Below are positions 7,071 to 13,249 of a stretch of DNA of 13,278 nucleotides, in pieces. This stretch comes from an uncultured Gemmatimonadota bacterium (GTDB lineage Bacteria > Gemmatimonadota > Gemmatimonadetes > Gemmatimonadales > Gemmatimonadaceae). Both the position numbers and the translations under genes were made by a program. The stretch covers positions 1 to 13,278 of the forward strand of contig CAMLHT010000099.1 of NCBI GenBank assembly GCA_946479895.1, in the 5' to 3' direction. The notes below the pieces were generated by a model. That model was given only the letters and a program-made list of their open reading frames with translations, was not told where the DNA came from and ran no database searches. The stretch's first letter is position 1, and every line of letters begins with the position of its first letter.

Positions 7071-7778
7071 ATGCTGAGCGGGAAGACGGCCGTCGTCACC
7101 GGCGGATCGCGCGGCATCGGCCTCGCGACGGCGTCGGCGCTGGCGAAGGCCGGCGCGAAGGTGGTGATCGTGGCGCGGCAGGCATCCGCCCTCCGGTCGG
7201 CGGCGAAGTCCCTCGGCGCCGCGACGGCGACGGTGTCGTGCGACCTCGGCGACCGCGCGGCGGTGGAGCGGGCGATCGAGGCCATTCGCGCGAGCCACGG
7301 CACGCCGGACATCGTCGTGAACAACGCCGGCATCTTCCGCGTCGCCCCGCTGCACGGCACCGACGCCGACGACTTCGCCGCGGCGCTCCAGGTGAACCTC
7401 TTCGCCCCGTTCCTCTTCATCCGCGCCTTCGTCGCGGACATGAAGGCGCGGAAGACCGGGCACATCGTGACGATCGGCTCGATCGCCGACCGCGTGATCT
7501 TCCCGGAGAACGCGGCCTACGCGGCGAGCAAGTTCGGCGCGCGGGCGATGCACGAGGTGCTGCGCGCGGAGCTCAAGGGCTCCGGCGTCCGCGCGACGCT
7601 CGTCTCGCCCGGCCCCGTGAACACCGCGCTCTGGGACGAGGTGGATCCCGATAACCAGCCGGGCTTCACGCCCCGGTCGGCGATGCTCTCGCCTCACGCC
7701 GTCGCCGACGCAGTGCTGTTCTGCACCACCCGGGCGCCGGACGTGAATGTCGACGAGCTCCGACTATCCCGGTCGTAA
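7071..7778 (+). CDS. Short-chain dehydrogenase/reductase, possible sepiapterin-type reductase
   Basis: A 235-residue classical SDR that uses NAD(P)H. It shows the glycine-rich loop TGGSRGIG at 10-17, NNAG at 84-87 and the catalytic set S137, Y150 and K154 (YAASK). The PGPVNTALW segment follows the active site. SDRs are too diverse to read a substrate from sequence, but the gene starts 2 nt after the PTPS stop. Sepiapterin reductase, which completes tetrahydrobiopterin, is itself an SDR, so pterin reduction is the most economical guess. Annotation by similarity alone could give a 3-oxoacyl-ACP reductase-like name. ATG 7071 is chosen because the Rossmann strand begins directly after it; the longer open frame upstream runs through the PTPS gene. 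Confidence 0.88.
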   Translation: MLSGKTAVVTGGSRGIGLATASALAKAGAKVVIVARQASALRSAAKSLGAATATVSCDLGDRAAVERAIEAIRASHGTPDIVVNNAGIFRVAPLHGTDADDFAAALQVNLFAPFLFIRAFVADMKARKTGHIVTIGSIADRVIFPENAAYAASKFGARAMHEVLRAELKGSGVRATLVSPGPVNTALWDEVDPDNQPGFTPRSAMLSPHAVADAVLFCTTRAPDVNVDELRLSRS

Positions 7779-7810
7779 GTCATCCTGAGCGAAGCGAGGG
7801 ATCTGCTTTC
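7779..7810 (+). repeat. Dispersed intergenic repeat, family B, copy 1
   Basis: GTCATCCTGAGCGAAGCG and following bases closely match 10479-10511 in the same orientation, with about three substitutions and one indel over 32 nt. The copy fills exactly the space between the SDR stop codon (7776-7778) and the next ATG (7812). Its GAGGGA lies about 10 nt before that ATG and may serve as the ribosome-binding site. TCC and GGA flank the core and could form a short stem. Confidence 0.75.
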
Positions 7811-7811
7811 G

Positions 7812-8429
7812 ATGTTCATAGAACTGATCGACTCCCTCCGCTGCCCCGCGGACCATCCGCCCTCCGTCCTCGTCGCCGCCTTCGAGAAGATCGTCGACCG
7901 CGACGTCGTCGAAGGCATGCTCGGCTGCCCCGTCTGCCGGTCGGAGTTCCAGATCGCCGGCGGTGAGCTGCGGCTGGTCACGACCGCCATGCCGGCGCCG
8001 GCGACCCGGGCGCTGAATCCCGACGAGGACGCGCTGCGCCTCGCCGCGTCGCTCGACCTGCGCCACGACACCGGCTTCGCCATCCTCCGCGGCGCCTGGT
8101 GCGCGCTCGCCGAGCGGATCGTGGACATCGCGCCGACGCACCTGGTCCTGCTCGACCCGCCGCTGAACACGCCGCGCGGCCCGGGACGCTCGATCATCCA
8201 CGCCGGCGGCACGGTGCCCTTCGCTCCGGCGAGCGCCGTCGCCGCAACGATCGACGACGACGAGCGGGCCTACGCGCTCGCCGTGTCGGTCAGGACCGGC
8301 GGCCGCCTGGTGGGCCCGTCGAATCTCAGGCTGCCGTCATCGGTGAAGGAGCTCGCCCGGGATGACCGCTGGTGGGTCGGCGAAAAGGAGAACGCGACGG
8401 CGCCGATCGCGCTCGGGCGAGCGCGGTAG
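7812..8429 (+). CDS. Trm112-like zinc-ribbon protein with uncharacterised C-terminal region
   Basis: A 205-residue protein whose first 50 residues look like the Trm112/UPF0434 zinc domain: IDSLRCP (C11), then RDVVEGMLGCPVCRSEFQI with C39 and C42. H15 or a second cysteine elsewhere would complete the site. In other organisms Trm112 is a small partner that activates methyltransferases. The remaining 150 residues contain a hydrophobic strand (THLVLLDPP) and a final basic stretch; I do not recognise a family. It follows the SDR by 33 nt, so it is probably in the pterin operon, although a repeat sits in the gap. It ends 15 nt before the long palindrome. Function unknown. Confidence 0.75.
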   Translation: MFIELIDSLRCPADHPPSVLVAAFEKIVDRDVVEGMLGCPVCRSEFQIAGGELRLVTTAMPAPATRALNPDEDALRLAASLDLRHDTGFAILRGAWCALAERIVDIAPTHLVLLDPPLNTPRGPGRSIIHAGGTVPFAPASAVAATIDDDERAYALAVSVRTGGRLVGPSNLRLPSSVKELARDDRWWVGEKENATAPIALGRAR

Positions 8430-8444
8430 TCGGGAGTCGCACGC

Positions 8445-8585
8445 GCCGGGAGGTCGGGAGGGTGCGCGGACAGCGGGTATCCAGAATTGGATAATCGTCG
8501 GATGCGAATCACGAGCCGGTGCGCTGCGAACGATTATCCAATTCTGTGATACCGCGTATCCGCGCACCCGCCCCGACCTCCCGGC
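8445..8585. repeat. 141-bp interrupted palindrome between convergent genes
   Basis: Left arm 8445-8498 and right arm 8530-8585 are complementary in four blocks: 8445-8458 with 8572-8585 (14 bp), 8460-8470 with 8559-8569 (11 bp), 8476-8481 with 8548-8553 (6 bp), and 8482-8498 with 8530-8546 (17 bp, perfect). The spacer is 31 nt. The innermost arm CAGAATTGGATAATCGT is AT-rich and unlike its surroundings. The palindrome begins 15 nt after one stop codon and ends 18 nt before the other. Neither side has a T-run, so it is not an ordinary intrinsic terminator. It may be a MITE-like mobile element or a bidirectional transcript-end structure. Confidence 0.9.
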
Positions 8586-8603
8586 CGACGGCCACCCCGA
8601 GGC

Positions 8604-10436
8604 CTACTCGCTCCCGCCCTCCGCGTACAGCGCGTCGATCTGCGCCTTGTACGCCTTGTCCACCACCTTGCGCTTGACGCTCAGCTTCGGCGTCAGCTCG
8701 CCGCGCTCCACCGAGAAGTCGTGCTCCAGGAGCGCGATCTTCTTCGGCACCTCGAAGTGCGCGAAGCCCGTGAGGCCGCCGAGGACCTCCTTCTCCATCT
8801 TCTTCTGGATCGTCGGCATCGAGAGCAGGTTCTTCCGGTCCGGCCAGATGATGTTGTTGCGCTGCGCCCACTTCTCGAGGTTGTCGAAGTTCGGCACCAC
8901 GAGCATGATCGGGAACTTCCGCTTGTCGCCGATCATCACCGCCTGGCTGACGTACTTGTTCGTCTTCACCACGTTCTCGATCGGCTGCGGCGCGATGTTC
9001 TTGCCGCCCGCGGTCACGATGATGTCCTTCTTGCGGTCGGTGATGCGCAGGAAGCCGTCCTCGATCGTCCCGATGTCGCCCGTATGGAACCACCCCTCGG
9101 CATCGATCGCCTCGGCCGTCGCCTGCGGCTTGTTGTAGTAGCCCTTCATCACGTTCGGGCCCTTCGTCAGGATCTCGCCGTCCTCCGCGATCCGTATCTC
9201 CGAGCCCGGCGCCGCCGGCCCGACCGTCCCGATCCGGAACTTCGTCGGCGAGTTCACCGAGATGAGCGGCGACGTCTCCGTCAGGCCGTAGCCCTCGAGG
9301 ATCACCATCCCCGCCGCGAAGAAGAACTTGTTGATCTCCGCCGCCAGCGGCGCGCCGCCCGAGACGAAGTACCGCAGGCGGCCGCCCGTCCGCGCGTGCA
9401 GCTTCGAGAAGACCAGCTTGTGCGCGAGCTTGTACTGCATCGCGAGCAGTCCCCTCGGCTCGCCGCCGGCCAGCTTCACGTCGGCCCAGCGGTCGGCCAC
9501 GTCGCGCGCCCAGAAGAAGATCCGCGCCTTCACGGCGCCGCCGGACAGCGCGTTGTCGAGCACGCGGGCGTACATCTTCTCGTAGAGGCGCGGCACCGAG
9601 AGGACCAGCGACGGCTTCACCTCGGACATGTTGAACGCCACCGTGTCCATGGACTCGGCGTAGGCGATCGACGTGCCCGTGTGCATCATCAGGTAGTGGC
9701 CGGCCATCCGCTCGAAGATGTGCGAGAGCGGGAGGAAGCTGAGGCAGCTGTCCCGTCCCTCGAACGGCACGACGCTCGCCGCGGCCATCACGTTCGAGTA
9801 GATGTTGTCGTGCGTGAGCATCACGCCCTTGGGATCGCCGGTCGTGCCCGACGTGTAGATCAGCGTCGCGAGGTCGTCCGGCTTCACCGACAGGGCGCGC
9901 TCGCGGTACTTCGCCTGGCGCGCGGGATCGTCGACGGCCTTCCCCTTCGCCTCCAGCTCGGCCAGGGTCATGTCCTCGCCCGGCTGCCGCGACGCGCTGA
10001 AGCCGATGACGTGCTTCAGGCTCGGGCACTTGCCCCGGATCTCCGCCAGCTTCGCCGACTGGGCCGCAGTCGAGCAGAAGATGACCGACGAGCCGGAATC
10101 GTTGATCAGGTAGGGCAGCTGTTCCGCAGGCAGGTTCGGATAGAGCGGAACGTCCGTGAGCGCCGACGTGAGGCACGCGTAATCCGCGATCGCCCACTCG
10201 GGCCGGTTCTCGGACAGGATCGCGACGCGATCCCCCGGCTGCAGCCCGAGCTCCTGGAGCCCGAGCGCGACCCGGCGGACGCGGTCCGCGAGCTCCCGGT
10301 GCGAGATGGGCTTGTACGACCCGCCTTCCTTGTACTGCAACGCATCCGGCCGGTTGTACTTCTCGACCGCGTCGAAGAACAGACGGGTCAAGGTGCCGGG
10401 CGCGGAGTTCCGCGGGCCGCCTGATACCTGCTGCAT
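8604..10436 (-). CDS. Long-chain fatty acid-CoA ligase (AMP-forming, COG1022)
   Basis: This enzyme activates long-chain fatty acids with ATP to acyl-CoA through an acyl-adenylate, probably at the inner membrane face. The 610 residues match full-length FAA1/FadD15-type enzymes. Key motifs: P-loop IYTSGTTGDPKG at about 193-204, EGYGLTETSP at 381-390, FHTGD at 450-454, and TDRKKDIIVTAGGKNIAP at about 467-483. The last is the fatty-acyl-CoA-synthetase signature, with the conserved Arg and Lys. ATG at 10436 is preceded by GGAGG at 4 nt, which decides it against a longer open frame reaching back to 10721. It lies 121 nt downstream of the lipoprotein gene on the same strand and converges on the palindrome. 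Confidence 0.94.
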   Translation of the reverse strand: MQQVSGGPRNSAPGTLTRLFFDAVEKYNRPDALQYKEGGSYKPISHRELADRVRRVALGLQELGLQPGDRVAILSENRPEWAIADYACLTSALTDVPLYPNLPAEQLPYLINDSGSSVIFCSTAAQSAKLAEIRGKCPSLKHVIGFSASRQPGEDMTLAELEAKGKAVDDPARQAKYRERALSVKPDDLATLIYTSGTTGDPKGVMLTHDNIYSNVMAAASVVPFEGRDSCLSFLPLSHIFERMAGHYLMMHTGTSIAYAESMDTVAFNMSEVKPSLVLSVPRLYEKMYARVLDNALSGGAVKARIFFWARDVADRWADVKLAGGEPRGLLAMQYKLAHKLVFSKLHARTGGRLRYFVSGGAPLAAEINKFFFAAGMVILEGYGLTETSPLISVNSPTKFRIGTVGPAAPGSEIRIAEDGEILTKGPNVMKGYYNKPQATAEAIDAEGWFHTGDIGTIEDGFLRITDRKKDIIVTAGGKNIAPQPIENVVKTNKYVSQAVMIGDKRKFPIMLVVPNFDNLEKWAQRNNIIWPDRKNLLSMPTIQKKMEKEVLGGLTGFAHFEVPKKIALLEHDFSVERGELTPKLSVKRKVVDKAYKAQIDALYAEGGSE

Positions 10437-10478: not shown

Positions 10479-10511
10479 TGTCATCCCGAGCGCAGCGAGG
10501 GACCTGCTATT
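10479..10511 (+). repeat. Dispersed intergenic repeat, family B, copy 2
   Basis: GTCATCCCGAGCGCAGCG and following bases match copy 1 at 7779-7810 in the same orientation. It lies in the gap between the lipoprotein gene and the acyl-CoA ligase, antisense to the direction of those genes, about 40 nt upstream of the ligase start. TCCC and GGGA flanking the core could make a small hairpin. Similar strings are, from memory, scattered in many genomes of several phyla. Confidence 0.75.
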
Positions 10512-13210: not shown

Positions 13211-13249
13211 GCGCGGATCACGCTGATGAACGCGGAAGAAACGAACCGG
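13211..13249 (+). repeat. Dispersed intergenic repeat, family A, copy 2
   Basis: The inverted partner of 10-48 (34 of 39 identical; five substitutions). It lies 16 nt after the phosphoribosyltransferase stop. A G-run (13205-13211) precedes it. No gene is seen from 13195 to the end of the window. Confidence 0.7.

Follow-up and report, generated by a model that had tools for sequence, protein, structure and literature searches.

The 174-nt gap between the stop codons of two converging genes (positions 8430-8603) is almost wholly occupied by one imperfect hairpin, which is probably a REP/MITE-like mobile element inserted at the converging junction in this lineage. All positions refer to the window, namely the whole stretch of 13,278 nt that was analyzed from an uncultured Gemmatimonadota bacterium. 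The features of the junction are listed in Table 1.

Table 1. Features at the converging junction of the window, with the basis of each assignment
Feature	Positions	Strand	Basis or remark
Full complementarity, including both TAG stops and the last codons of both genes	8419-8612		Folds of both strands
Core interrupted palindrome	8445-8585		Folds, block pairing, arm alignment
Left arm	8445-8498	+	Inner part (8476-8498) AT-rich, with a nested small inverted repeat TATCCA-GAAT-TGGATA
31-nt spacer	8499-8529		Weakly structured in folds
Right arm, repeating the left arm imperfectly in inverted orientation	8530-8585	-	Arm alignment
GTAG holding the left gene's TAG stop; complement of the CTAC at 8604-8607	8426-8429	+	Folds
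CTAC (minus-strand GTAG) with the TAG stop of the right gene	8604-8607	-	Folds
Gene of the 205-aa protein, converging from the left	7812-8429	+	Without Pfam or NCBIfam match
Gene of the AMP-binding acyl-CoA ligase, converging from the right	8604-10436	-	Domain match, gene calling

An earlier note on this DNA had described an interrupted palindrome with arms pairing in blocks of 14, 11, 6, and 17 bp around the spacer, and with AT-rich inner arms that differ in composition from the rest. On re-examination, the palindrome was found to be genuine and to be the most stable fold seen in the window. All four blocks and the spacer were present, the fold added a 3-bp block between the second and third blocks (8473-8475 with 8555-8557), and the GC content of the inner arms was 32-40% compared with 69% for the window. 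In the alignment of the arms (8445-8499 against 8530-8585), 51 positions were identical, 2 were mismatched, and 5 were gaps; because the arms differ by both substitutions and indels, they are unlike a simple fold-back assembly artefact. The calculated fold energy of the gap was -123.7 kcal/mol on the plus strand and -126.1 kcal/mol on the minus strand (z of -11.7 and -11.3, respectively), and none of 200 shuffles of each strand was as stable. The inverted-repeat score of the gap was 35, whereas the best of 1276 other 174-nt segments of the same sequence scored 13.

Complementarity extends outward from the core through GTAG and CTAC to about 8419-8612, so that the palindrome takes in both TAG stop codons, although the outer pairing is weaker than that of the core. 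The fold energies of the segment 8418-8615 were -136.5 and -139.1 kcal/mol for the two strands. GTAG and CTAC each occur once within 8350-8700, and both coincide with the stop codons. The inverted repeat measures 141-194 nt depending on the limits taken, and the codon-usage gene caller found no gene inside it. A sigma-70-like promoter pattern was also noticed in the left arm (8467-8495, plus strand; CGGACA, 17 nt, GATAAT), for which shuffling gave an expectation of 0.0 (sd 0.1); it is probably incidental to the AT-rich inner arm.

The gene on the left encodes a protein that may be Trm112-like. By eye, the ends of both window proteins lie within a few residues of those of most of 15 displayed relatives; the exceptions are longer, among them the ligase of L118 and the 205-aa homologue of L127. 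Among the best 80 ligase matches listed, the closest seven include five named gemmatimonads, at identities of at most 75%. The 179 genomes of the family and the 288 genomes of the order that were searched were entered via one of these ligase relatives. A ligase match was detected in all 179 family genomes and a match to the 205-aa protein in 166 of them. The converging pair was measurable in 118 of the 179 genomes, where the median stop-to-stop distance was 15 nt. The gap was 60 nt or less in 88 genomes (overlapping in 34), 61-130 nt in 5, 131-330 nt in 9, and more than 330 nt in 16. The other 61 genomes stand outside this count owing to a missing protein match, location on another contig or on the same strand, a distance of many kb, or absence from the matches listed; in one batch of junction loci, 7 of 67 were without one of the two proteins. 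The corresponding site is thus near-empty in 88 of 118 relatives, which were compared beyond the genus level. This near-empty state makes an insertion specific to the lineage the most likely origin of the palindrome, rather than a conserved terminator, in which case the hairpin would have been added between, or so as to include, the two stop codons.

The 14 relatives with gaps of 61-330 nt hold mostly unrelated sequences. An all-against-all comparison of these inserts (E<=0.001) yielded matches only between G125 and G128 (45 nt, 84%) and between G123 and G125 (35 nt, 80%), and the window gap matched none of the 14 at the same threshold. A conserved orthologous terminator was rejected because 88 of 118 gaps are small or negative and none of the 14 inserts of middle size is similar in sequence to that of the window. 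As judged from raw fold energies and stem counts, many of the inserts are long hairpins. At least two (G040 and G127) consist mainly of short tandem repeats, and that of G175 is weakly folded.

Dispersal within the own genome was examined for six of the 14 inserts, a hand-picked and non-random set, and five of the six proved to be repeats dispersed through their genome. Since the matches count both strands of a palindrome, the number of distinct places is the better measure; it is a lower bound, as it covers at most 30 loci per search, with 40 candidates scored per genome in several of the searches. With the junction included, the insert of G099 gave 34 matches at no fewer than 17 distinct places, that of G013 90 matches (at least 28 places), that of G121 49 matches (at least 14 places), that of G089 30 matches (at least 9 places), and that of G092 11 matches (at least 5 places, several of them matching in part only). 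The sixth insert, the hairpin of G128, was found at two places in G128, at one in G126, and at the orthologous place in G125, and was not found in the other six genomes of the same search; this low copy number indicates that not every hairpin at the junction is a high-copy repeat. The repeats of relatives are often specific to one genome: the repeat of G092 had no match in G093, and that of G089 matched neither G086 nor G088 and matched G087 once, weakly. The repeat of G121 is common to G122 (25 matches); among 15 copies of this G121/G122 repeat, changes on both sides were seen in 6 of 31 pairs, with a covariation term of about zero.

Two side observations concern these inserts. Four hairpins have a common apical loop, GGC[GT]TATGGGTCATGGA, around positions 1480-1590 of their loci (L313 and L316 in G128, L314 in G125, and L315 in G126). 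Their long arms differ from one another and each is nearly perfectly complementary; two of them lie at the studied junction, while the remaining two occupy a different convergent gap and a tandem gap, respectively, and they possibly form a family with a fixed loop and free arms. The loop motif of G125/G126/G128 gave 12 hits in viral contigs, none of which folded with similar arms as judged by eye. By eye, the hexamer AACTGC and its complement GCAGTT recur in the otherwise different junction inserts of G011 (L120), G092 (L239), G093 (L250), and G121 (L183), and AACTGC was also seen in a hairpin that lies in a convergent gap of G004 (L358, from 2233).

The gene context of the repeats was assigned with a home-made codon-usage caller, which recovers the genes of the window, and 6 of 84 places, which lay at a locus edge, were excluded from the orientation counts. 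Five relatives supplied the background, 400 kb in 20 regions of equal length (20 kb), in which 44 of 336 gene gaps were convergent. Among the intergenic places of each repeat, convergent gaps accounted for 13 of 26 in G013, 4 of 4 in G092, 5 of 9 in G089, 4 of 13 in G121, 2 of 10 in G122, and 3 of 16 in G099. A binomial test, with one convergent place deducted for the query junction, gave six single-test P values: 2.5e-5 for G013, 0.0022 for G092, and 0.013 for G089, and 0.2, 0.72, and 0.6 for G121, G122, and G099, respectively. The places of G122 do not include the query junction, and its P value without the deduction was 0.38. A preference for convergent gaps is therefore seen in three of the six repeat sets and is not significant in the other three. 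With -0.71 kcal/mol per nt, the stability of the window gap was unmatched among the 135 background gaps of at least 60 nt, the best of which (-0.69 kcal/mol per nt) is a divergent gap of G016. Convergent gaps elsewhere, such as those seen in G138 and G004, also hold hairpins of about 20-33 bp. As a separate observation, when the intergenic folds of the five-genome background are ranked by stability, 8 of the top 10 belong to G016 (L365-L369).

Further copies of the window palindrome were sought in several collections. The rest of the window holds no second copy, the best other match being 25 nt long (E 0.007). When the whole gap was compared with the 179 family genomes, with a few best candidates scored per genome, no copy was recognized; 31 genomes gave matches at E<=0.01, the best of 41 bits, all of them short and taken as chance. 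An inner 15-mer, allowing one mismatch, occurred at 12 places in 10 of the 179 genomes, every one with a mismatch. A search of the order (288 genomes) likewise gave no DNA copy, again with a few best candidates scored per genome. The sole order-wide match at E<=0.001, 33 nt on the spacer side that fell inside a called gene of G161, and matches to 12 plasmid records, with E values of 0.1-0.5 and 15-24% of the query covered in each, were also taken as chance. An inner 18-mer was absent from the viral contigs, the translated palindrome used as a protein query gave no candidate, and Rfam gave no match over the window. Because the relatives are distant, with ligase identities no higher than noted above, and such repeats are often genome-specific, absence there says little about the own genome, and we infer that the palindrome may be a repeat with further copies in that genome.

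The earlier reading of a MITE-like element that landed in a safe convergent site is strengthened by the near-empty sites and by the dispersed inserts of relatives, but is unproven for this palindrome, of which no second copy was found. According to PMC3733652, bacterial MITEs such as RUP, NEMIS, ERIC, and others are non-coding, 70-300 nt long, and gene-adjacent, and have inverted-repeat ends and a robust hairpin. The window element resembles them in all these respects, including its length, its inverted-repeat ends, and its lack of coding sequence. It differs from the MITEs as described there in that only their ends of 15-30 bp are complementary, whereas the window element is complementary almost throughout, and in that no second copy was found and no target-site duplication was recognized in its flanks by eye. 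The closest parallels are the dispersed hairpin repeats of G099, G089, G121, G092, and G013, which occupy the same junction, are similar in size (queries of 127-197 nt), and have long imperfect arms like those of the window, shorter in G013. They have no sequence similarity to the window element, and dispersal, which is shown for them, is inferred for it. The window hairpin is unusual in size and familiar in kind; REP/MITE-like hairpin insertion is the most fitting label for it, although that it belongs to either class is unproven.

Under this favored account of a mobile insertion, a non-coding hairpin element of about 170-190 nt would have landed where the stop codons of relatives usually adjoin or overlap, and the inserted element itself may provide both TAG stops. 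Read from either side, it would form a hairpin at the 3' end of each of the two mRNAs and could obstruct exonucleases there. It could also position the collision of the converging polymerases, acting in this way as a bidirectional terminator without a U-run. The bidirectional transcript-end function proposed earlier may accordingly be considered putative, and a role of the palindrome as a source of regulatory double-stranded RNA, also putative, is possible. If a mobile insertion is the right explanation, the junction would present, across more than 100 species, a near-zero gap that repeatedly gains unrelated hairpins. Such a natural series could be used to ask whether converging genes do no more than tolerate mobile hairpins between them or have recruited these as portable ends for transcripts from both sides.

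It is rather unlikely, though worth weighing, that the palindrome arose locally as a bidirectional terminator or mRNA-end hairpin in single copy, has been maintained in this lineage by selection for its RNA structure, and is not mobile. The very stable fold on both strands speaks for such an origin, as do the low-copy hairpins of G128 and G125 at the same junction, the arms of which have changed and yet remain complementary. In vitro, when a sequence that encodes a hairpin is placed between converging promoters, it sets the position of head-on polymerase collisions and stabilizes the collided complexes (PMC13082048, preprint). In our reading, a T-run would be unnecessary under such a collision model. 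The bidirectional terminator YnaJ-UspE of that preprint is similarly a hairpin between converging genes that can be read on both strands; the window hairpin, a putative terminator, differs from it, as presented there, in not being conserved between relatives. Against local evolution, most measured relatives cope with a near-zero gap, which leaves little room for a hairpin, and the long arms have inner parts that are AT-rich unlike the genome. Five of the six examined inserts of relatives, moreover, are dispersed repeats. The palindrome also does not have the short GC-rich hairpin followed by a T-run of an intrinsic terminator: in agreement with the earlier note, a scan of 7700-9000 placed the only terminator-like sites, two overlapping ones at 8390-8414, outside it.

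A special form of the mobile insertion, a RAYT-mobilized head-to-head pair of GTAG-tagged REPs (a BIME-like dimer) forming one big stem-loop, appears improbable. REPs mostly sit between convergent and tandem genes, their GTAG termini often supply TAG stops, and head-to-head dimers can form a single large stem-loop (PMC3733652); REPs are also reported as frequent between convergent genes (PMC1525189). The window element is comparable to the GTAG REPs and dimers of PMC3733652 in its convergent location, its single stem-loop, and its outer ends (8426-8429 and minus-strand 8607-8604), each of which has an outward-facing GTAG with the TAG of the flanking gene. It differs from those described there in its much longer arms and in the stretches beside the tags, which form none of the 5-13-bp hairpins that define REPs (fold z of +2.31 for the 35 nt next to one tag and of -0.61 for the 38 nt next to the other). 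Furthermore, its units would be 70-80 nt instead of 20-40 nt, no other copies were seen in the rest of the window, the 179 family genomes, or the 288 order genomes, and it may be coincidental that each of the two TAG stops is preceded by a G.

A replication accident, that is, a neutral and functionless inverted duplication or template switch at the junction, would fit a sequence that is unique in everything searched and has imperfect arms, but it is very improbable, since the only matches of the arms elsewhere in the window are stretches at chance level and hence no source for a local duplication was seen, complementarity has been kept despite several indels, and hairpin-forming inserts recur at the same junction in relatives.

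A broader and decidedly speculative proposal, which we regard as unlikely, is that convergent junctions in Gemmatimonadaceae-like genomes serve as docking sites, where unrelated mobile hairpins are time and again swapped in and domesticated as interchangeable, stop-supplying bidirectional terminators. If so, the window would represent one such event, with a hairpin family that the search of 288 genomes did not find.

The persistence of the palindrome had been considered notable because sbcCD is encoded 4.7 kb away, an argument that fails, as the same gene order stands beside short or overlapping junctions. The order sbcD, sbcC, acetyltransferase, PTPS, SDR, and junction recurs in G004, G118, and G016, with junctions of -4, -4, and 29 nt, respectively; the proximity of sbcCD reflects old synteny, and a link between SbcCD and the palindrome was rejected. 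The SbcC of the window matched SbcC_Walker_B over the cut-off, and its SbcD match was under the curated cut-off (62.3 against 77.65 bits). In Escherichia coli, as reported in PMC3315005, an 85-bp interrupted palindrome was judged to be no target of SbcCD during replication, and SbcCD expression was lethal without RecA in cells with a 246-bp palindrome; the imperfect palindrome of the window is intermediate between the two in length.

Other apparent repeats were noticed in the window and count in favor of the mobile insertion. Its ends hold a 38-nt inverted pair (10-47 and 13212-13249, 89% identical), which has a 12-mer in common with the hairpin repeat of G121; this points to a dispersed repeat, at which the assembly may have broken off. 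Two similar short motifs of the GTCATCCtGAGCGaAGCGAGGGAtCTGCT type lie in intergenic gaps at 7779-7807 and 10480-10508, and a sequence related to them was seen by eye in the L001/L110 junction.
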